A DNA stretch of 42,542 nt from Myxococcales bacterium (GTDB lineage: Bacteria > Myxococcota_A > Polyangia > Polyangiales > Polyangiaceae), in the NCBI GenBank assembly GCA_013297655.1, contig JAAFHV010000048.1, forward strand, positions 1 through 42,542, given 5' to 3'. The notes below the pieces were generated by a model that saw nothing but the letters and a program-made list of their open reading frames with translations, was not told the origin of the DNA and searched no databases. Made by a program: the position numbers and the translations under genes. Positions 12,075 to 36,026 of the stretch are shown piece by piece; the stretch's first letter is position 1, and each line of letters begins with the position of its first letter.

Positions 12075-13457
12075 TTAGAGGACCTCGCTCTTGTCGTGAG
12101 GCTTGTGCGTAGCGGAAGGGGCGGCGGGCGGCGTCGGCGTGGGGGCCGTGGGTGGCGGCGTCGCGGCAGCCGGCTGGGTAGCAACCTGAGGCACTCCCGT
12201 AGGTTGCGCTGCGGTCTTCGGACCGGGGCCGTTGGGCAGCTTCGCGGCGGTAGGGGGCGCCTTCGGGAGCGCCGTGGGAGAGACCGTGGTCTTGTCGGTC
12301 GTCGCGACGGGATCGGGGATTCGGGCCTGCGTGCTCTGCTGCGTAGGCGCGGGCGCGTGTGGAGCCGCGTCGGCGCGATCGGGACCGCCGCGCGAAACGA
12401 AGAAGACCCCGAAGCCGACGAGCAACACGAGGAGCGCGGCTCCCGCGGCCATGCGACCGCGCCCGCGTGACTCGGCGACGCCGGGGATCCCCGACGCAGA
12501 GAGTTGGTTCGTGGTGGTCACCTCACGAATCGCGACCGGCGCGACCCCGTTCGCGGCGAGGTCTGCTTCGGTGGATGCCGCGCTGCGGAACGCACGCACC
12601 AGATCTTCGGCGTCGCGGAAACGGTCCTTCACCTGACGTTGGAACGCCTTCTCGTAGAAGGGATCGAACATGGTGCCGAGCTCCGGCTTCGCGACCGACA
12701 TCGGGATGTACTCGCTGCGGCACACGTTCACGAGGACCTCTTGCATGGTCTCGCCGGGCCACGGCGTCTTCCCCGCGAGCATCGCGTAGCTGAGGACCGC
12801 CATCGACCACACGTCGCACTGGTGGTCCATGTTCGCCGAGGCGCGCGCTTGCTCGGGGCTCATGTACGTGGGCGTGCCCACCGCGATGCCCTTTTGGGTG
12901 ACGTTTTTGTCACCTGGCTGCATGGACCGAACGAGGCCGAAGTCGAGCACCTTGACGAGCAGCTTGCCCTCTTCGTCGCGGCACAAAAATACGTTTCCAG
13001 GCTTCAAATCGCGGTGGATCAGCTTCGCTTTGTGCGCCTGGGTGAGGGCGCGGCAGACCTGATCGAGGATCGCGAGCGCCTCGGCGGGGGTCATCGGTCC
13101 GCTCTCGACGCGATGGTCGAGCGACATCCCGTCGAGCATCTCCATGACGATGTACGGGACGCCGCCTTGCTCGCCGTAGTCGTGCACCGACACGATGTGC
13201 CGGCTCTGCTTCGAGAGCTGAGACGAGGCCTTCGCTTCGTCGAGGAAGCGCTTCAGGATCGTGTCGCGGTCGATGTCGTCGAGCAGCGAACGATCGAGGA
13301 ATTTGATGGCGTACGGCGTGTCGAGGGTGGAGTGGTGAGCGACCCAGACCTCGCCCATTCCGCCGCGCCCGAGGAGCCGCTCGAGCCGATAACGGCCAGC
13401 GACGATCGCCCCCACGTCGATCTCGAACTTCTCTTGCTCGGGTCGCGTACTTTGCAT
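12075..13457 (-). CDS. Transmembrane Hanks-type Ser/Thr protein kinase
   Basis: The N-terminal kinase domain (about 23-295) has all catalytic elements: glycine loop GRGGMGEV (30-37), Lys52, Glu74, HRD (148-150) with DLKPGN, DFG (172-174) and SPE (200-202). A juxtamembrane stretch is followed by one transmembrane helix (336-355) and about 100 extracytoplasmic residues rich in Pro, Thr and Ala, without a recognisable sensor domain. The arrangement is that of a PknB-like receptor kinase, catalytic domain inside. I start at the ATG at 13457; the frame is open to a GTG at 13520, which would add an Arg/Pro-rich leader. The XRE regulator gene is divergent, and the AsmA-like gene follows on the same strand. 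Confidence 0.95.
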   Translation of the reverse strand: MQSTRPEQEKFEIDVGAIVAGRYRLERLLGRGGMGEVWVAHHSTLDTPYAIKFLDRSLLDDIDRDTILKRFLDEAKASSQLSKQSRHIVSVHDYGEQGGVPYIVMEMLDGMSLDHRVESGPMTPAEALAILDQVCRALTQAHKAKLIHRDLKPGNVFLCRDEEGKLLVKVLDFGLVRSMQPGDKNVTQKGIAVGTPTYMSPEQARASANMDHQCDVWSMAVLSYAMLAGKTPWPGETMQEVLVNVCRSEYIPMSVAKPELGTMFDPFYEKAFQRQVKDRFRDAEDLVRAFRSAASTEADLAANGVAPVAIREVTTTNQLSASGIPGVAESRGRGRMAAGAALLVLLVGFGVFFVSRGGPDRADAAPHAPAPTQQSTQARIPDPVATTDKTTVSPTALPKAPPTAAKLPNGPGPKTAAQPTGVPQVATQPAAATPPPTAPTPTPPAAPSATHKPHDKSEVL

Positions 13458-13569
13458 GGGAGGGCCTCGGTGGCTGCGCGGTTTGCGCGGAGGCTCGTCG
13501 GCGAACACGAGCCCCTGCACGTCGCAGCGTGAAATGATTGTCGGACGGTGCTCGCGTTTCGGAAAGTGC

Positions 13570-21859: not shown

Positions 21860-22013
21860 ATAGCGATGATCGGGATGGTCGCCGTCTACGTCTGAGGTAA
21901 GCGCGTTTCCCGAGAGGCCGCTCTCGGAGCGCTCACACAATCGGCCAAGACGTGCGAAATTCGTCGAGGGGCTACGTCGTCCAACCCTACGGGGCCCCCC
22001 AGGAGTGGCGTCG

Positions 22014-23525
22014 ATGACGAGAACGATGCGTGTGGCGTGTGTTCCGATGGTGGTCCTCGCGCTCCTTGGCCTCGCGGCCTGCCGCAAGAGGGCGCCGAGC
22101 GATTCGGGCAAAGAGTCGAAGTCGAAGACCTCCGCCAAAGTCACCGATCCGGACGACGAGGACGAGAACGGCGATCCCGACGAGGACGACTCCGTCGCGC
22201 CGGCGGCGGTGTCGGAGCTGACCGACGCGGAAGAAACACGCCTGGCCACGCTCGCGCTGCTCGCGAAGGACATGCCCGATCCCATCGCGGCGGCGAAGAA
22301 GAACGGCCCGCCGAAGGTCGAGCTCAAGAAAGACCCCCGCGGTAGCTGCGGCGAGATTCGAATCGGCGGGCAAGCGTACAAGCTCGACTGCGATACCGAG
22401 GGCTACGGCGAGGTCAAGGGCGCGGGGGTTCCGTTGATCGACGAAGACGAGATTGGCGCCTCGTCGGCCCCCACCAAGCTCCCCGATGTCGTCGACTTCC
22501 GCACCAAAAACCAGGTCGGCCCCGTGATCGATCAGGGCGGCTCGCTGAGCTGCACCGCGGTTTCGCTCGCCCACGTCGTGAACCACGAGATCGCCCTCCG
22601 CACGGGCAAGCCCGGCGCCGTCTCCGCGATGCAGATGTGGGGGCGCTACGCGAACCCGAGCATGGACGAGGCGATCAAAAAGAACGAGGGAAAGGGCATC
22701 GCCCCCGCCGCGCTCCTCCCGTACGACTGGCGCACGGCAGACAAGTGGGACAAGACGAGCCCTCCGTCCCCGAGCACCTTCACGAAGCTCGACGGGCAGG
22801 CGGTCGCCGACGTGATCGACGTGGTCAAGCTCAACCCGAAGAGCGTCAAAGGAACCCTCGCGCAGGGGCACGCGGTCTGGTTCGCGATTCACGGAGCGCA
22901 CGGTCTCCAAAAGACCGAGGGCTCTCCCGGTGGGCCGCAGGTGGTCCCCGCCTACGACTATCAGACCATGCCGAGCTCGCAGCGCATGGGTCACGCGATG
23001 GCGCTCATGGGCTACCGCGTGAAGGACGGCAAGACCTACTACTTGCTGCAAAATAGCTGGGGCACGGGCTACGGCGAGAAGGGCTACGCCTACCTCGACG
23101 AGACCACGTTCATGAAGAACGTGAAGTATGCCTACTCGGTCGAGGTCGTCCCGAAGGGCTCGAAGGCGAAGACGAACGCCGGCGTCGGCGCGACGAAGTG
23201 CACCCCCGGGCACCTGCCCGATGCTCAGACCGGGAAGTGCGCGCTCAAGTGCGCCGACGGGAGCGCGCGCAACGGCAATGTGTGCGCCGCGGCCTCGACC
23301 GCGTGCGGCGCCGGCATGGTGAACGTGAACGGTCGCTGCGTGAGGGCCGCGCCGACCCTCAAGACCAAGAAAGACGGCATCGCGGCGAACTGCGTTCCCG
23401 GCGGGTGCGCCTACGCGATCGACAAAGGCGCGTTCGGTTGCACCCGCGTGGGTGGTTGCGTGATCACGTGCGCTGCCCCGACGTTCAAGCTGGTTCGGAA
23501 CGGAACGAAGCTCACCTGCAACTGA
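22014..23525 (+). CDS. Papain-like (C1) cysteine protease lipoprotein
   Basis: The 503-residue product begins with a lipoprotein signal (LLGLAAC, Cys23) and a highly acidic linker (45-60). A papain-type domain follows: DFRTKNQVGPVIDQGGSLSC, in which Gln174 would form the oxyanion hole and Cys180 is the nucleophile; His327 in GHAMALMGY; and Asn347 in LQNSWGTGYGEKGYAYL. All triad residues are present, although the usual CGSCW is replaced by GSLSCT. A Cys-rich tail (about 385-503, roughly 14 Cys) follows. An AGGAG site 8 bp before the ATG at 22014 sets the start. C1 proteases are uncommon in bacteria; this one is probably surface-anchored and disulphide-stabilised. It is divergent from the Cys-rich lipoprotein genes, which could be its partners or substrates. 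Confidence 0.88.
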   Translation: MTRTMRVACVPMVVLALLGLAACRKRAPSDSGKESKSKTSAKVTDPDDEDENGDPDEDDSVAPAAVSELTDAEETRLATLALLAKDMPDPIAAAKKNGPPKVELKKDPRGSCGEIRIGGQAYKLDCDTEGYGEVKGAGVPLIDEDEIGASSAPTKLPDVVDFRTKNQVGPVIDQGGSLSCTAVSLAHVVNHEIALRTGKPGAVSAMQMWGRYANPSMDEAIKKNEGKGIAPAALLPYDWRTADKWDKTSPPSPSTFTKLDGQAVADVIDVVKLNPKSVKGTLAQGHAVWFAIHGAHGLQKTEGSPGGPQVVPAYDYQTMPSSQRMGHAMALMGYRVKDGKTYYLLQNSWGTGYGEKGYAYLDETTFMKNVKYAYSVEVVPKGSKAKTNAGVGATKCTPGHLPDAQTGKCALKCADGSARNGNVCAAASTACGAGMVNVNGRCVRAAPTLKTKKDGIAANCVPGGCAYAIDKGAFGCTRVGGCVITCAAPTFKLVRNGTKLTCN

Positions 23526-24646: not shown

Positions 24647-25129
24647 ATGGTCAAAGCGATCTCGTCATGGTCCTTCGCCGGAGCGCTCGTCGCTTCCCTC
24701 ACGGCTTGCGCCGGGAACGCGGAGATCGGGCCCGACCCCGTCACTCCCGCGTCGACGGCTGCACCAAAGGTCGTCGCGCCGAAACCGAAGGTCACGAAGC
24801 TCGCTCGTGGCGGCGTGCGCGATACGGTCCGCGGGGGCATCGGTCGCTTCCTCCAAGACATCACTCTCGACGATTCGCCCGCGTTCAAGAACGGGAAATT
24901 CTTCGGTTTTCGGGTGGTCGAGCTCCGCGGCGATCTCGACGCGTGTGATCTCCGGCCCGGCGACGTGATCACCAAGGTGAACGGCCAATCGGTGGAGCAC
25001 CCCGAAGAAGCGCTCGTCGTGTTCCAGTCGCTCGCGAGCGCGAACGAGCTGGTCGTCGACTACGAGCGCGACGGTGCTCCCCAGAAGATGCGCCTGCCCA
25101 TCGTCGACGACACGACCGCCTCGAAGTAG
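24647..25129 (+). CDS. Lipoprotein with a GspC-like PDZ domain
   Basis: The 160-residue protein has a lipoprotein signal (lipobox LTAC, Cys21), a Pro/Lys linker and then a GspC-type PDZ: FKNGKFFGFRVVEL, a D-L-R-P-G-D-V-I-T-K-V-N-G-Q loop and HPEEALVVFQSLASANELVVDYERDG. In type II secretion GspC uses such a domain to help select substrates, but there is no gsp cluster here. It could be a stand-alone periplasmic adaptor or a chaperone-like protein. A purine-rich GGGGGAAGG abuts the ATG. The gene is convergent with the kinase-pseudokinase operon, 24 bp apart. Confidence 0.82.
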   Translation: MVKAISSWSFAGALVASLTACAGNAEIGPDPVTPASTAAPKVVAPKPKVTKLARGGVRDTVRGGIGRFLQDITLDDSPAFKNGKFFGFRVVELRGDLDACDLRPGDVITKVNGQSVEHPEEALVVFQSLASANELVVDYERDGAPQKMRLPIVDDTTASK

Positions 25130-25153: not shown

Positions 25154-27166
25154 TCAGGGGCCGAGCAGCCTCGCGAGGGCGACCCGATCGTTGTCGACGG
25201 TGCCGGTCGCGCCTTGATTCGCGGAGAACCGGAGCATCACGGTGCCGTCCGAGCGCTCGCGGAGCTGGGTCGCGTCGATGCGGCCGTGGACGACGCCCTC
25301 GCCGTGGAGCGCGGCGAGCGCTTCCCGTAGGCGTGCTGCTTCGTAGGGCACGAGGGCGCGCGAGACGGGGCGCGCGTCGGCGTCGGAGAGCCAAAGGATC
25401 GAAGCTTCACGATCGACACGTAGGATCGTTTGCAGCAGCGGGTGATCGAGGCCCGCGAAGATGCGCGCGCGCTCGAGCGCGACGTCGTCGAGGGGAACGC
25501 ATTCGACTGCGCGCCCGGTGTACGTGTCGAGGTGAGAGCCGTCGTCCTGTGCGACGAGCCTGTCGGAGCCCGCGCGCATCGGGCGAGGGTGCTCCGAGCC
25601 TTTGCGGAGCGGCGTGCGTTCCAGTGTGCTCGGCCACTTGAGCGCAGCGAGCTCGCGCCGAGCGGCGAACGCGTCTTCCGGCCTCTTCTCGGGCGCCGCG
25701 TCGAGGAAGCGGAGCACCAGCGCGTCGTGGCGCGCGTCGAGATCGCGGTGGATCCCGCTCGGGCGCGTGGCGCGCGCGGCGGTTGGCTGGGTCACGCTCG
25801 AGGGCGCGACGTCCTCGTCGCTCGTAGGGAATTTCCGAGGGTCCTCGTCCGTCGCGCGCGGGCGCTCCCCCGTGAGCATTTCCCAGAGGAGCGCGCCGAC
25901 GCCGTAGATGTCGCTTCTCACCGTCGCGGCGCGACCTTCACGTTGCTCGGGGCTCATGTACGCGAGCGTGCCGATGAGGCCTGCGGTCGCCGTCGCCGAG
26001 AGATCTCCGAGGTGAGCCGCGCCGAAGTCTCCGAGCCGCGTCACGCCCGCGTCGTCGAAGAGCACGTTCGCGGGCTTTACGTCGCGATGGAGCACGCCCA
26101 CGCGGTGGGCCTCGCCGAGCGCGGAGAGGACCGCGATCGCGATCTCGACCGCGCGCGCCGGCGCGATGGGCTCCTTTCGGAGCATGTCGTCGAGGGTGCC
26201 TCCCTTCATCCATGCGAGCACCAGCGCGGGGCCCTCGGGGAGGTAGTCGCGGAGCGGGAGCACGTTCGGATGATCGAGGGCGCTGAGCACACGGACCTCG
26301 CGCTCGAACCGCGCGAGGGCGTCGCGCCCGGCGCCGCGGGCGTCGTAGCCGGCGAAGATCTTCACCGCGACGTGCTCGCGCCGCACCGTGTCCATGCACT
26401 CGACGACCCGCGCCGAAGGAGAGCTCGCGACCTCCCTCACGATGTCGTAGCGGCCAAAAAGTCGTGAAGTTACGATACCTTGCGCGGGCTCGTCGGTCGT
26501 GACGTCGGCGGGGCCGCCGAGGGAGTCGAGCTCGTGTTTGGCCTCTGCTTCGGCTTGGCCGTAGCCGAGCTCACGGAGGCCACGCACGAGCCAGGTGAGC
26601 GCGAGGCGTCGCTCCGGTGAGCGGGGGGGGACCTTCTGCAACGCACGGGTCGCGTGCTCGGCCTTGCCGTAACGGAGGAGGAGCGCGCCGTACGCGACGT
26701 GGAGCGCGAAGCGATCGGGGCTCCTTCGCATCGCACCTTCGAGAATCTTGGCGGCGGCGACGACGTCTTTGACGGCCTCCAGGATCCGCGCCGCCCGGAG
26801 CGAGTCCCCCGCTTTTTCATAGGCGCGCGCGGCATCGCGGGGCTTGTCGCTCGCTTCGTAGAGGCGCGCGGCCCATACGCAGTGCCCTCGTGTCTCCAGG
26901 TTGAGGGCGAGTCGCTCGCGCACGGAGCCGTGACCTTCGAGGGCGGCGAATGCCTCTTCCGCGAGCGCGTTGTCACCTGCCTCGGCGGCGAGTCCCATCG
27001 CCGCGGCTGGATCGCCCGCCCGAAGCGCTTCCCGCGCCGCGGGCCCGAACGCACACGCGCGCTCGTAGAGCTTTCGCGCAGTCTCGTGGTCGCGCTCTTG
27101 GCTCGCGAGCGCCGCCGCCTCGAGGAGCCGCTCTTCACGTACGAGCCCCGCGACGCCGGGGCTCAA
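25154..27166 (-). CDS. TPR-kinase-pseudokinase fusion protein
   Basis: The 670-residue product has three parts. Residues 1-230 are helical, TPR-like repeats (for example AARLYEASDKPRDAARAYEKAGDSLRAA spans two hairpins). Residues 238-510 are a Hanks-type kinase with Lys269, Glu290, HRD (360-362), Asn367, DFG (380-382) and SPE, but its glycine-rich loop reads VASSPSARVV with no glycines. Residues 533-670 resemble a second kinase, cut off after the DFG region: the Lys position reads VECVPL, the HRD reads H-G-R-I-D (627-631) and the DFG reads FSA, so it is a pseudokinase. The likely start is TTG at 27166, overlapping the upstream stop as TTGA; no ATG or GTG fits. It is the last gene of a packed operon with a DUF882 peptidase. 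Confidence 0.85.
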   Translation of the reverse strand: MSPGVAGLVREERLLEAAALASQERDHETARKLYERACAFGPAAREALRAGDPAAAMGLAAEAGDNALAEEAFAALEGHGSVRERLALNLETRGHCVWAARLYEASDKPRDAARAYEKAGDSLRAARILEAVKDVVAAAKILEGAMRRSPDRFALHVAYGALLLRYGKAEHATRALQKVPPRSPERRLALTWLVRGLRELGYGQAEAEAKHELDSLGGPADVTTDEPAQGIVTSRLFGRYDIVREVASSPSARVVECMDTVRREHVAVKIFAGYDARGAGRDALARFEREVRVLSALDHPNVLPLRDYLPEGPALVLAWMKGGTLDDMLRKEPIAPARAVEIAIAVLSALGEAHRVGVLHRDVKPANVLFDDAGVTRLGDFGAAHLGDLSATATAGLIGTLAYMSPEQREGRAATVRSDIYGVGALLWEMLTGERPRATDEDPRKFPTSDEDVAPSSVTQPTAARATRPSGIHRDLDARHDALVLRFLDAAPEKRPEDAFAARRELAALKWPSTLERTPLRKGSEHPRPMRAGSDRLVAQDDGSHLDTYTGRAVECVPLDDVALERARIFAGLDHPLLQTILRVDREASILWLSDADARPVSRALVPYEAARLREALAALHGEGVVHGRIDATQLRERSDGTVMLRFSANQGATGTVDNDRVALARLLGP

Positions 27167-28185
27167 TCCGCGCCCCCGACGCTTTCCATGTCTTCGTCCT
27201 CTTCGTGGACGGTGGTGGTGGGCTCGGTGCCGCCGTGGGTCGCGACGTACGCTTTTTGACGTGCCGACAGCGCGGAGTCGACGTCGGCCATGAGGGTAAA
27301 CGCGGGCATCGGGCGATCGCCTCGCGCGAGGGCGCTGCTGTCGGCGCGGGAGGCGACGTCGGCGAGCACACCGTAGAGGCGGCTCTTTCGACCGGGGCCG
27401 CTCGAATCGACCCAGAAGTAGCTCCGCTCGCGCACGTCGACGTGGACGAAGCCGCTCACGGGGTACACGCCGACCCCAGAAAAACCCGCTTCGCGCGCGA
27501 ACTTGGCGACATCTTCGTCGGTCGCGCCAGGGACGACCATGTCCATCGCGCGCCCGCGGCCGTGGTTCGAGTGGGTCGTCGGCTTCGGCGTGCGATACCC
27601 CGAAACGACGCGGATCTCGTGCGCCGAAAAATGGCGCGCGATCCGGTACACCGAGTCGAGGAGCCGCGGCTCGACCGGGTGCTCGTTTCCGGTGCGCGGA
27701 TCGCGGAGGATCTGCGCTGCGCGATCGAGGTCGGAGGCAGAAAATCCGCCCTTGTCGGAGAGGGCGGTGAGCTCGGCGCGCTCGGTCGTGTTGAGCGCGT
27801 AGAGCACGAGCTTCGGGCGCCCGGTCGAATCGAGCGGCGCCGTCTTTCCGGGCGTCGCGGTGTGCCAGGCGCGCACGCTGTTGGCGTAGCCCTTCGGGAG
27901 CGGCGGCGGTGGCTTCGGCTTGCCGGTTTTCCCAGGCTTTCCGTGGGTGGTGGGTTTGCCTTGTGCGGCGGGCTTGCCCTGCGCCGGAGCGGGGGCGGGC
28001 TTCGCTGCTGGAGCGGCGCTCGGTTTGTTTTGGCCTGCCGCAGGTTTCCCGGCCGCAGGTGCCTCCGACGGGATGGCGAGCGATGCTGCCAGACAGAGGA
28101 CCGCGACGACCGCGGCGCCGCGACGCCGACCCTCGTGACGGGACGCGGGCCTCCTCACGAATCGAGCTCCACGCCGGGGCGCCAT
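27163..28185 (-). CDS. DUF882/M15-like zinc peptidase, peptidoglycan-directed
   Basis: The 340-residue product has a signal peptide (hydrophobic about 23-40), a Gly/Lys/Pro/Gln-rich low-complexity linker (about 45-98) and a YcbK/DUF882-type domain of the M15 clan. The zinc motif is S-N-H-G-R-G-R-A-M-D (His208, Asp215) and the second His is in GFVHVDVRE (His248), with RVVSGYRTP just before. Members such as MepK cut peptidoglycan crosslinks in the periplasm. The basic linker may bind the wall. A C-terminal acidic extension (about 290-340) is unusual. Its ATG lies 2 bp after the stop of the upstream lipoprotein gene, and its stop overlaps the TTG of the kinase gene. Confidence 0.88.
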   Translation of the reverse strand: MAPRRGARFVRRPASRHEGRRRGAAVVAVLCLAASLAIPSEAPAAGKPAAGQNKPSAAPAAKPAPAPAQGKPAAQGKPTTHGKPGKTGKPKPPPPLPKGYANSVRAWHTATPGKTAPLDSTGRPKLVLYALNTTERAELTALSDKGGFSASDLDRAAQILRDPRTGNEHPVEPRLLDSVYRIARHFSAHEIRVVSGYRTPKPTTHSNHGRGRAMDMVVPGATDEDVAKFAREAGFSGVGVYPVSGFVHVDVRERSYFWVDSSGPGRKSRLYGVLADVASRADSSALARGDRPMPAFTLMADVDSALSARQKAYVATHGGTEPTTTVHEEDEDMESVGGAD

Positions 28186-28187
28186 GT

Positions 28188-29141
28188 TCAGCGAGACGCG
28201 TGCGCGCTGCGGGAGAACGTGATCGTCCGCGACGTGTCGAACCGAATCTCGCCGTCCTCGCGGCGCGTTTTGTGCGGCCCGTCGACGTGGAAGCGCTCGC
28301 GCTGGATGCGGTGCACGACGAGCGAGCCCTCGTCGCTGGCGAGCGGGAGCAAGGCTTTGCCCGTGTCCGAGAACGCGCAGCGGTTCGTGATTCGACCGTC
28401 GGCGGAGCGGACGTCGACGAGCACGATAGGCTCGCTCTCAGTCCCACCCGGGCTCGACGGAGACCACGTGAGCTCGGCCGGGCCCACGACCGCGGCCCAA
28501 TCGCGCGGCTCTTGGCCGGCGAGGCGAAGGTCGGTCACGTCGTGGGGGACGGTGACGAGCGCGGCGAACGTAACCGCCTCGGGATCTTGCGGATTGCCCG
28601 CTGCCCGCACGACGACACGCGCTGCTTCGGGGCTACGCGCGCGCTCGGGATCCGAAATGCGTGCATTGTACATGACTCCCGACAGCACACCCGCGGGGTC
28701 GGGGACGTGGCGCGGAGCGAGCGAAGTGCGTGTGCCGTCGGCCAGCTCGACCGCGACCTGTCCGAGATCGACCAGCTCGAGCGCGCGTGACGCGGACACG
28801 GACGTTGGGGACAGCGGCGACGTTGGCGAGCTCGCGAGCGGGGCTCCGCAGGTGCCGAGGGCAGGCAAATCTTCGGGAAAACCAGCCATTCGGAGCGCGG
28901 ATTCGTCGAGCGGACCGCGCTCGGCGACACGCAGCACACGCGCGACGACCTCGGTCTTGGCGCCATCTTGGGTGCGCTCGACCGTGACGAGGGCCGATTG
29001 GCTCGCGCCGAGATCGGATGCGTCCTGACCGTCGGTTACGGCCGCGAACGAACAGCCCGCCAAAATGGAGAGCAGCGGCAGACAGAGCCATGCCGCAAGC
29101 GAGCTTCTCGTGGGGGGCGCCGTGCGCGCGTCAGAACACAT
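28188..29141 (-). CDS. Lipoprotein of unknown function in the kinase operon
   Basis: The 317-residue product has a lipoprotein signal (hydrophobic run ending ILAGC, Cys30) and otherwise predicted strands and loops, with patterns such as VDLGQVAVELADG and EPIVLVDVRSADGRITNRC, but no motif I can name. It is probably periplasmic or on the outer membrane. It sits between the nucleosidase gene (6 bp) and the peptidase gene (2 bp), so expression is coupled; a role with the wall peptidase is inferred. There are three cysteines in the mature part besides the lipid anchor. Confidence 0.75.
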   Translation of the reverse strand: MCSDARTAPPTRSSLAAWLCLPLLSILAGCSFAAVTDGQDASDLGASQSALVTVERTQDGAKTEVVARVLRVAERGPLDESALRMAGFPEDLPALGTCGAPLASSPTSPLSPTSVSASRALELVDLGQVAVELADGTRTSLAPRHVPDPAGVLSGVMYNARISDPERARSPEAARVVVRAAGNPQDPEAVTFAALVTVPHDVTDLRLAGQEPRDWAAVVGPAELTWSPSSPGGTESEPIVLVDVRSADGRITNRCAFSDTGKALLPLASDEGSLVVHRIQRERFHVDGPHKTRREDGEIRFDTSRTITFSRSAHASR

Positions 29142-32652: not shown

Positions 32653-34437
32653 GTGCGTTCCTTTGGTCCGTCGCTGGGCCTCTTCTTCGCGTGCTTGGCC
32701 TTCTTTTTTGCGGCTTCCATGCGGCCTTGCCTCGCCGCGCCGAAGCCCACATCCACCCGCGTGGGGTACTCGCCCTACGAGCGCGACGCGATCGCGAACG
32801 CCCTCCGGCAGACGGGGCTCGTGCGCGAGCCGGAGCCGGAAGGAAAAATCGTCGAGTCGATCGAGGTGGTCCGCCTCGAGGTGATCGAAGAAAAGGACCC
32901 GCTCCCTGGGTTCTTGAACATGTTCCACGCCACCTCGAAGGACTACGCCATCCGGCGCGAGTCCCTCTTGAAGGTGGACGACTCGTATCTCCAAGTGGTC
33001 GCCGACGAGACCGAGCGAAACCTCCGCACGATCTTCCAAGTGTCGCTCGTGCTCGTGGTGCCCACGAAGGGCTCCGACGAGCACCACGTGCGCGTGCTCA
33101 TGATCACGAAAGACGTGTGGAGCCTCCGTCTCTCGTGGGACCTCGGCGCCACCGCGGGTGGCCTCGAGCGCTTCACCCTCCAGCCGCAGGAGACCAACGT
33201 CGGCGGCTTTCACCACACCGCCAAGACGCAGTTCACCTACCAGCCCGAGAGCCTCACGTTCGGTGCAGGATACAAGATTCCTCGCTTCGGTTATTCCTGG
33301 GTCGGCGCGTCCACCGACGCGGGCTTCACCGTGAACCGTCGCAGCGGGGACCTCGAAGGTGGCGTCCTCAAGGCCGCGGTGTCGAAGCCGCTCTATTCCA
33401 CGCGCACACCCTGGGCGTGGTCGGCGGGGGCCGGCGCGTCGACGGGGATCTCGCGCCGCTACTCGAACGCGGCGGTGTTCGTCGACCGCGCCACCGGGGT
33501 GCCCTGGCAGTACCGCAGCACGTCGGTGAGCGGGAGCGTGGGGCTCGTGCGGAGCTTCGGGTGGAAGTACAAGCTCGACGTCTCGTTCGGCGTCTCGGTG
33601 AGCCACGCGCGCTACGAGGTGCTCGCCAACGAGACCCTCGATCCTGCGCGGGTGGACGCCTTTCGCCAGCGCAACGTGCCGATCGGCGAGACGCGCTACG
33701 GGCCCTACCTGCAGCTTCGCAGCTACACGAACAACTTCGTCACCTTGACCGACTTCCAGACCCTCGGGCTTCAAGAGGACGTGCGGCTCGGTCACGACAT
33801 CTACGTGTCTCCCGTCACCGTGCTGCCGGGCTCCACGCGCACCCTCGCCGGCTGGTCGGCCGGTGCACAATACACGTGGGCCCTCCGCGACGGCGTCGTC
33901 CGCGTGTTCACCGAGTCGTTCGGGGAGCTCCAGCTCGACGGCGGCGACGGCACCCAAAAGCTCACCGACGCGTCGGTCAGCGGCGGCCTGAACGTGGCCA
34001 CCCCGCGCTTCAAAATCGGGCGCCTCTTTTTCAGCGTATCGGCCTCCAATCGGTATCGGAACTACCTGAATAGCCAAGGTTTTCTCGGCGGCGACGGACG
34101 GCTTCGTGGGTACCCTACGAGCTTCTTCGGGGGGAAGGACTTCGTCATCGGGAACTTCGAGTACCGCACTCGACCGGTCGAGATTTTGTCGTGTCAGGTC
34201 GGCGCGGTGCTCTTTTACGACGTCGGCGACGCGATGAACGAGTTCGCGAACCTGCGCGTGAAGCAGTCGCTCGGCGGGGGCCTCCGTGTGCTCCTCCCGC
34301 AGTTCAACCGCGCCGTGTTCCGCGCCGACATCGGCTTCCCGATGGACCGCGGGCCGTTCGGCGCGGGCGGAAAGCCAGTCGACCCGTTCAATTTTTACGT
34401 CGCCTTCGAACAGGCGTTCGGGTTCGGCGGGATCTAA
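32653..34437 (+). CDS. Omp85-family outer-membrane protein, probably a single POTRA
   Basis: The 594-residue product starts with GTG (32653) and a signal peptide (hydrophobic LFFACLAFFFAASM, ending CLAAP). The N-terminal ~120 residues include one POTRA-like unit (SIEVVRLEVIEEKD ... VSLVLVVPTKGSDEHHVRVLMITKD). The rest is rich in amphipathic strands, and near the end reads RLRGYPTSFFGGKDFVIGNFEYRTRP, matching the (V/L)RGY/F motif that seals the Omp85 barrel. BamA-type proteins insert or export outer-membrane proteins; single-POTRA members are often substrate-specific. The C-terminus ends FGFGGI rather than a terminal Phe. It lies 104 bp upstream of a Ser/Thr kinase gene on the same strand. Confidence 0.85.
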   Translation: MRSFGPSLGLFFACLAFFFAASMRPCLAAPKPTSTRVGYSPYERDAIANALRQTGLVREPEPEGKIVESIEVVRLEVIEEKDPLPGFLNMFHATSKDYAIRRESLLKVDDSYLQVVADETERNLRTIFQVSLVLVVPTKGSDEHHVRVLMITKDVWSLRLSWDLGATAGGLERFTLQPQETNVGGFHHTAKTQFTYQPESLTFGAGYKIPRFGYSWVGASTDAGFTVNRRSGDLEGGVLKAAVSKPLYSTRTPWAWSAGAGASTGISRRYSNAAVFVDRATGVPWQYRSTSVSGSVGLVRSFGWKYKLDVSFGVSVSHARYEVLANETLDPARVDAFRQRNVPIGETRYGPYLQLRSYTNNFVTLTDFQTLGLQEDVRLGHDIYVSPVTVLPGSTRTLAGWSAGAQYTWALRDGVVRVFTESFGELQLDGGDGTQKLTDASVSGGLNVATPRFKIGRLFFSVSASNRYRNYLNSQGFLGGDGRLRGYPTSFFGGKDFVIGNFEYRTRPVEILSCQVGAVLFYDVGDAMNEFANLRVKQSLGGGLRVLLPQFNRAVFRADIGFPMDRGPFGAGGKPVDPFNFYVAFEQAFGFGGI

Positions 34438-34525
34438 AAATCCGCCCAACGTTCGTGCGCCCACGACCGAAATGTCAGGGCCGGGTGCGGGGCGGTCTGC
34501 GCTCGGAACCCGGCGCTCCTTCTGC

Positions 34526-34531
34526 TAGCTT
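34526..34531 (+). promoter_or_regulatory. -10-like hexamer for the kinase gene
   Basis: TAGCTT (within TGCTAGCTT) lies 10 bp before the GTG at 34542, giving the kinase gene its own probable promoter despite following the Omp85 gene. Confidence 0.35.
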
Positions 34532-34541
34532 GGCAGAAGCC

Positions 34542-36026
34542 GTGCCTCTCTCTGCGGACGACAACCAACGCTCCCCCGTCGCTACCGGCGACGTGATCGC
34601 CGGAAAGTACCGGGTCGATCGCGTGCTCGGCGCCGGAGGCATGGGCGTCGTCGTGGCGGCGACGCACACGCAGCTCGACCAGCGGGTCGCGCTGAAGTTC
34701 GTGCTCCCGCACATGCTCGCGGGCGAGGTGTCGGTGGAGCGCTTCTTCCGCGAGGCGCGGTCCACCGCGAAGCTCACGAACGAGCACATCACCCGCGTCC
34801 ACGACGTGGGCACCCTCGAGAGCGGCGCGCCCTTCATCGTCATGGAGCTGCTCGACGGCTCCGACCTCGCGCAGCTTCGTCGGCGCGTGGGCAAGCTCCT
34901 CGTTCCGGACGCGGTCGAGTACGTGCTCCAGGCGTGCGAGGGCCTCGTCGAGGCGCACGCGGCGGGCATCGTGCACCGCGATTTGAAGCCGCAAAACCTG
35001 TTCGTCGCGCGTCGCATGAACGGCGCGCCGCTCGTGAAAATCCTCGATTTTGGCATTTCCAAAGCCACCGGGGCCGCCGCTGTCGGGCAAATGAACCTGA
35101 CCGACTCGGCCACGGTCCTCGGCTCGCCGCTCTACATGTCGCCGGAGCAGATGCGATCGGCGCGGAACGTCGATGCACGGAGCGACATCTGGTCGGTCGG
35201 GGTCATCTTGTACGAGCTGCTCGCAGGCAAGGTCCCGTTCGACGGCGAGACCGTGACCGAGCTTTGCCTGAAGGTCGTCATCGAAAAAGAGACCCCCGTG
35301 AGCGAGCTCCGCGCCGACCTCCCCCCTGGTCTCGCCGAGGTCGTCCACCGGTGCCTCTCGAAAGATCCGAACGAGCGCTACGCCAGCGTCGCCGCGCTCG
35401 CCGATGCCCTCGAGCCTTACTCGCGTAGCGCCGAGAAGGGCGTTCAGCTCCGGGCGTGGCGAAGCTTCTCGGACACGGCCGACGCCTCTTCGTCCGGCGA
35501 TTTTGGCCAAGCGCGCGAAGCGGTCGCCCTCGCCGAGTCCAATCGCGGCAGCATCCCGGACAAGGCGCAGCTCGAAAAAGAGAGCACACAGAGCACCTGG
35601 GGCAACACCCAGGGGGGCACTCGGCGTCGCACGTACGCCGGGCTCGTCGGGATGGCGGCGGTCCTCATCGTCGCGGTCGGCATCGCGGTCCGCATCGCGA
35701 CGTGGGGGGGACCCAAGGTGGAGCCCACCAGCGCCGTCGCAGCGCCCGTTCCACAGCCCGAGAAGAGCGTCGCGCTCACGGTCCCGACCCCCTCGGGCAC
35801 GGCGCCGGCAACCACCGTCATGCCCACCGCGCTCGCGCCCGCACCGGAGCCGAGCGCTCCGACCGATGCGAAGGGCTCCCCCGTCGCGAGTAGCAAAAAG
35901 CCGGTTTTGTCGTTGCCGGTCAAGCCCACGGCGGACAAGCCGACCGCAGCGCCTCCTTCCGCTACCACCGCGCCCCCGCCTCCGCCCGCGAGCGCGAAGG
36001 TCAACGGCGCGCCGATCATTCACTGA
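34542..36026 (+). CDS. Transmembrane Hanks-type Ser/Thr kinase
   Basis: The 494-residue product has an intact kinase domain (about 23-295): glycine loop GAGGMGVV (30-37), Lys52, Glu71, HRD (145-147) with DLKPQN, DFG (169-171) and SPE. After a Ser-rich juxtamembrane region comes one transmembrane helix (about 365-386) and a Pro/Thr/Ala-rich extracytoplasmic tail of about 105 residues. It has the same organisation as the kinase at 12075, but with different sequence. I use the GTG at 34542; a TTG at 34530 and other upstream codons are possible. The 104-bp gap after the Omp85 gene and its own promoter-like element suggest separate transcription. The sensed signal is unknown. Confidence 0.93.
   Translation: MPLSADDNQRSPVATGDVIAGKYRVDRVLGAGGMGVVVAATHTQLDQRVALKFVLPHMLAGEVSVERFFREARSTAKLTNEHITRVHDVGTLESGAPFIVMELLDGSDLAQLRRRVGKLLVPDAVEYVLQACEGLVEAHAAGIVHRDLKPQNLFVARRMNGAPLVKILDFGISKATGAAAVGQMNLTDSATVLGSPLYMSPEQMRSARNVDARSDIWSVGVILYELLAGKVPFDGETVTELCLKVVIEKETPVSELRADLPPGLAEVVHRCLSKDPNERYASVAALADALEPYSRSAEKGVQLRAWRSFSDTADASSSGDFGQAREAVALAESNRGSIPDKAQLEKESTQSTWGNTQGGTRRRTYAGLVGMAAVLIVAVGIAVRIATWGGPKVEPTSAVAAPVPQPEKSVALTVPTPSGTAPATTVMPTALAPAPEPSAPTDAKGSPVASSKKPVLSLPVKPTADKPTAAPPSATTAPPPPPASAKVNGAPIIH

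Follow-up and report, generated by a model that had tools for sequence, protein, structure and literature searches.

A myxobacterial kinase-pseudokinase protein with a glycine-free nucleotide loop

Janus kinases (JAKs) are eukaryotic tyrosine kinases in which a FERM-SH2 part is followed by a pseudokinase and then by a kinase. In the protein described here a kinase and a pseudokinase are likewise joined in one chain, but their order is reversed, with the kinase placed first; the parallel to the JAK-type layout drawn in the original prediction thus does not extend to domain order. The first kinase domain resembles PknB-type kinases, since its best NCBIfam model is that of the PknB PASTA kinase (below cut-off) and its best Foldseek matches are PknB as well. 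However, our protein has neither a PASTA nor a membrane part, and its nucleotide loop is glycine-free. By profile, the solved pseudokinase closest to the second domain is MviN (Rv3910) of M. tuberculosis, a member of the ActPs3 family (PDB 3otv, 3uqc). MviN does not bind ATP and forms a back-to-back dimer; it is phosphorylated by PknB and then recruits FhaA, which damps peptidoglycan synthesis (PMC12599244). The ActPs3 family as a whole is marked by deletion of the activation loop and by degradation of all motifs (PMC12599244). In the open-access literature, subscription journals being outside the scope of the search, no paper was found on the family of our protein or on the bacterial tandem proteins L075-L104 discussed below.

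The gene was analysed within a stretch of 42,542 nucleotides (the window) from a soil myxobacterium. The source genome has 9.9 Mb and at least 150 kinase matches, and the named genomes closest to it in the public collection are those of Labilithrix and Polyangiaceae. Located at 25154..27166 on the minus strand, the gene encodes a product of 670 aa plus a stop codon; the reading frame, its coordinates and its motifs (Lys, HRD and DFG intact in the first kinase, HGRID and no DFG in the second domain) are as originally predicted. Translation is assigned to start at a TTG codon at 27166, which overlaps, as TTGA, the TGA that ends the upstream gene; in alignments this codon coincides with the Met or GTG at which the orthologs start. 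A longer open reading frame starting with GTG (1097 aa) was rejected as the kinase gene, because position 27166 is favoured both by the starts of the orthologs and by the overlapping upstream gene. No membrane segment was found in the 670-aa protein, the highest 19-residue hydrophobicity mean being 1.47, inside the kinase. The protein is predicted to be soluble and cytoplasmic. Two further Ser/Thr kinase genes lie within the window, at 12075-13520 (minus strand) and 34191-36026 (plus strand).

The N-terminal part is formed by TPR-like repeats (residues 3-215; 26522..27160, minus strand). In the AlphaFold model, built from 14 sequences, this region folds into about 15 short helices with pLDDT mostly of 85-95. 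When the N-terminal part was scanned alone, TPR_14 scored 26.3 bits (cut-off 23.5) and TPR_19 scored 25.0 (cut-off 25); against the whole 670-aa protein the TPR profiles stay below the Pfam cut-off. The full-length model has a pTM of 0.41 and gives the arrangement and contacts of the domains without confidence. Its first-kinase region is poor, with pLDDT of 34-66 over much of the domain, which we attribute to the shallow alignment. In the Foldseek search with this model the first kinase dominates and the rmsd is large, thus that search was set aside as far as the C-terminal domain is concerned.

The Ser/Thr kinase domain (residues 235-509; 25640..26464, minus strand) matches PF00069 with 122 bits against a cut-off of 31.7 (E 3e-35). 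Its nucleotide loop, VASSPSARV (residues 246-254; 26405..26431, minus strand), contains no glycine at all: in the alignment columns the three glycines of the canonical GxGxxG are replaced by A247, S249 and A252, respectively. K269, E290, HRD 360-362, N367, DFG 380-382 and SPE 405-407 are intact, and Lys269, Glu290, Asp362, Lys364, Asn367, Asp380, Gly382, Glu407 and Asp419 are invariant in 35/35 orthologs. The stretch IHRDLDARHD (about residues 472-481) was rejected as a second HRD motif, as it is part of the first kinase, within its C-lobe. Judged by its sequence, the domain is homologous to Hanks-type kinases with one feature, GxGxxG, lost, and its canonical membership has to be qualified accordingly.

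The absence of loop glycines is a property of a whole group of relatives. At the three positions, 27/27 orthologs from families f1 and f8 have A/T/S, T/S and A/S, respectively, and never glycine; two more f1 orthologs, found later (L198 and L199), have a loop that is likewise glycine-free. The remaining families of the order carry G, G and G at these positions in all eight orthologs, and class members outside the order have a normal loop, mostly LGAGxxGRV. Within the source genome itself, every one of the 40 kinases sampled, out of at least 150 matches, retains two or more loop glycines. Set against the 27 orthologs without any, this argues that the loop did not arise by chance. A kinase-domain tree built without the loop requires one change of loop state, on a branch with SH-aLRT 87 (quick method), so that one loss of the glycine loop is the simplest reading rather than a proven one. 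Since the loss is fixed in all 27 orthologs and the catalytic residues are invariant, we regard it as a fixed lineage trait of an otherwise active-looking kinase. Purifying selection acts on all three parts of the protein and is strongest in the kinase; for the closest pair, dN/dS is about 0.10 (kinase), 0.16 (TPR part) and 0.21 (pseudokinase).

Loss of all three glycines throughout two families could also mean that ATP binding is abolished, that both kinase-like domains are inactive, and that the protein is a scaffold. We find this quite improbable, given that Lys, the alphaC Glu, the HRD Asp, Asn, DFG and the SPE Glu are unchanged in all 35 orthologs, that it is precisely the kinase which is under the strongest purifying selection, and that the replacements in the loop are small (A, S/T, A/S). 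The first kinase is probably active despite its glycine-free loop, in line with the original prediction. A bolder proposal, which we put forward as possible but speculative, is that a lineage of active kinases lost every loop glycine once and then kept mostly A-x-[ST]-x-x-[AS]-R-V in 27 genomes of two families; nucleotide handling would then be tuned or gated, perhaps through a hydroxyl or phosphate group at the tip of the loop, under the control of a tethered pseudokinase which stops at helix F. The orthologs provide a natural experiment, the same protein with the same catalytic residues being available with and without the glycine loop. As ortholog pairs differ in their loop glycines, the need for these glycines is directly testable between relatives.

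The C-terminal domain (residues 533-670; 25157..25570, minus strand) is a truncated pseudokinase as judged from profile, predicted fold and alignment columns, and it ends at helix F. HGRID (residues 627-631) stands in place of HRDLK, and DFG is absent. Across 28 sequences, the position of the beta3 Lys is occupied by V/L/I/R, that of the alphaC Glu by R in 20 and by E in none, and that of the HRD Asp never by D. The His and Gly of the motif are kept in 27/28 and 28/28 sequences, respectively, and the helix F Asp in 28/28 (H627, G628 and D660 in our protein). The residues that bind ATP thus appear to be gone. When the domain was modelled alone (15 sequences), a pLDDT of 88.6 and a pTM of 0.77 were obtained. 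In the model the strands and helices follow the order of a kinase N-lobe; helix E, the region of the catalytic loop, beta7-beta8 and helix F come next. In place of the expected activation segment, beta8 and helix F are joined by no more than a short link.

Comparison of this model with CDK2 (residues 0-197) by VIA-align gave Z 12.6 and rmsd 2.3 over 137 aligned residues, and comparison with MviN (3otv) gave Z 11.9; all 50 Foldseek matches listed are kinases. The profile of the 28 orthologous C-terminal domains reaches kinases of the source genome at up to E 7e-6, and its hhalign comparison with a profile of kinases from the same genome (E 5.7e-7, 92% probability) places HGRID on HRDLK. A Pfam scan of the single C-terminal sequence from the window found no match, and among other members it found weak Kdo-kinase matches only. 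One could read the missing match as a sign of an unrelated non-kinase domain in which the HG motif is coincidental, yet we give this next to no credence, as it is already contradicted by concordant evidence from fold, profile and motif. The original assignment of this region to a kinase lobe that has become a pseudokinase is borne out: beta3 Lys, alphaC Glu, HRD Asp and DFG are all absent, and the profile comparisons do not indicate a common non-kinase domain.

The domain shares with MviN a kinase fold without catalytic motifs and a deleted activation loop, and a cell-wall context is present in both. However, HRD has become Lsid in MviN (PMC12599244 Table 1) and HGxxD here, and our domain stops at helix F, unlike MviN. 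Moreover, the MviN pseudokinase belongs to a membrane protein whose chain contains no active kinase, whereas our domain is tethered to an active-looking kinase. As regards the traits of the ActPs3 family, both activation-loop deletion and motif degradation are found in our domain; the C-terminal transmembrane region of many, not all, members is absent from the 670-aa protein. MviN itself has family-specific residues such as F724 and W789. The profile of the 28 domains matches the MviN structures weakly (E 7e-4, from alphaC to alphaF), and we do not assign the domain to ActPs3 on this match.

The fact that MviN, with the same activation-loop deletion, is the closest solved pseudokinase by profile, and that it recruits FhaA once phosphorylated by PknB (PMC12599244), suggests another way in which our protein might work. 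The kinase could phosphorylate its own pseudokinase or linker, which would then be bound by an FHA-domain or similar partner, with no allosteric control involved. We consider this conceivable but doubtful: no FHA gene turned up among those conserved neighbours that were examined, a conserved acceptor Ser/Thr in the linker is not established, and the profile match to MviN is the weak one given above.

At a threshold of E <1e-10, the C-terminal domain was found in 67/193 genomes of the class Polyangia, nearly always in one copy; in the weakest few of the 67 the match spans only the first 100 positions, and these may be ordinary kinases. At 18 of the 20 class loci that were read, a kinase loop lies upstream in the same chain, with enough space for a similarly long N-terminal part, and outside f1 this loop is normal. 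From these sequences the kinase-pseudokinase layout appears to be old, with approximately one copy per genome across the class. A nearly single copy that is widely kept among very many kinases suggests that its function is a core one. Nearly every ortholog has a conserved C-terminal lobe. Some near-complete f1 genomes have no ortholog, and in four orthologs (L032, L034, L037 and L039) the kinase is kept and the pseudokinase is eroded or lost, thus the pseudokinase is not indispensable.

Since the covalent tether is kept across the class and the pseudokinase is under purifying selection, autoinhibition of the JAK type could be considered, in which the pseudokinase would hold the kinase inactive as long as the TPR part is not engaged. 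It seems unlikely to us, as the domain order is the reverse of that in JAK, the full-length model shows no confident contact between kinase and pseudokinase, and some orthologs combine an intact kinase with an eroded pseudokinase. That the second domain controls the first allosterically, as suggested originally, is a plausible hypothesis alongside scaffolding. Outside the class, matches to the C-terminal domain are weaker and the make-up of the proteins is different. Five loci from other Myxococcota (L201-L205) encode pseudokinase-like domains of the HG type in which a short link joins beta8 to helix F; four of the five have no recognisable kinase directly before the domain, and the loci were set aside as a different kind.

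The gene upstream of the kinase gene, with a 4-base overlap, encodes a secreted M15_2/DUF882 peptidase that is MepK-like (27163..28185, minus strand; PF05951 E 2.5e-21, MepK model below cut-off). In families f1, f3, f6 and f8 the stop codon of the M15 gene is found at a distance of -11 to about +50 bases from the probable start of the kinase gene, a spacing that makes co-transcription likely. The next gene upstream (28188..29141, minus strand) encodes a putative lipoprotein that neither Pfam nor NCBIfam models match and that is a conserved neighbour of the M15-kinase pair in f1. On the other side, a convergent gene (24647..25129, plus strand) encodes a PDZ-like lipoprotein, assigned from weak PDZ/GspC matches and synteny. 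The closest relatives keep the order lipoprotein, M15, kinase, PDZ-like lipoprotein, panC. The M15 neighbour was undetected beside about ten f1 orthologs and in distant class members. In several genomes where M15 went undetected, the lipoprotein adjoins the kinase. A gene for a papain-family (C1) cysteine protease is found close to panC, at 22005-23525 (plus strand).

We lean towards the reading that the protein is a cytoplasmic active kinase with a non-catalytic pseudokinase whose role in cis would be regulation, docking or dimerisation. The TPR-like repeats would bind an upstream partner. The first kinase, whose activity we infer from its unchanged catalytic residues, would phosphorylate Ser/Thr with Ala and Ser/Thr in place of the loop glycines. 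The tethered pseudokinase, because its ATP-binding residues appear to be lost, is taken as the module in cis that might set kinase activity or present partners, in the manner of MviN and with no second enzyme. As in four families of the order the kinase gene adjoins or overlaps the gene for a secreted MepK-like endopeptidase, the pathway would most likely be cell-wall remodelling. The locus thus offers a gene-level link to a cell-wall endopeptidase, together with a pseudokinase that is minimal (about 140 residues) and tractable.

The tandem layout had been thought rare in bacteria in the original prediction, and this is not supported: in one search, 18/66 loci outside the lineage of the window also encode tandems of a kinase and a kinase-like domain. 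These proteins (L075-L104, about 540-680 aa) come from Gammaproteobacteria, Zixibacteria, Ignavibacteria and others, and they have the kinase first and the kinase-like domain second, as in our protein. However, a TPR part was not seen in them, and their second domain is fuller, with the beta3 KK and a DF motif retained and a larger share of the C-lobe present. Nearly all 18 tandems carry HGH or HGN in the second domain in place of HRD, the exceptions being L095 with HGD (Asp kept), L090 with HSN, and L083, in which the scan did not find the motif. The longer motif reads mostly HGHLRPTN or HGNLRPSN for HRDLKPEN; examples of the tandems are found at L085:5917-7650, L087:1383-3104, L088:5887-7716 and L104:5947-7776.
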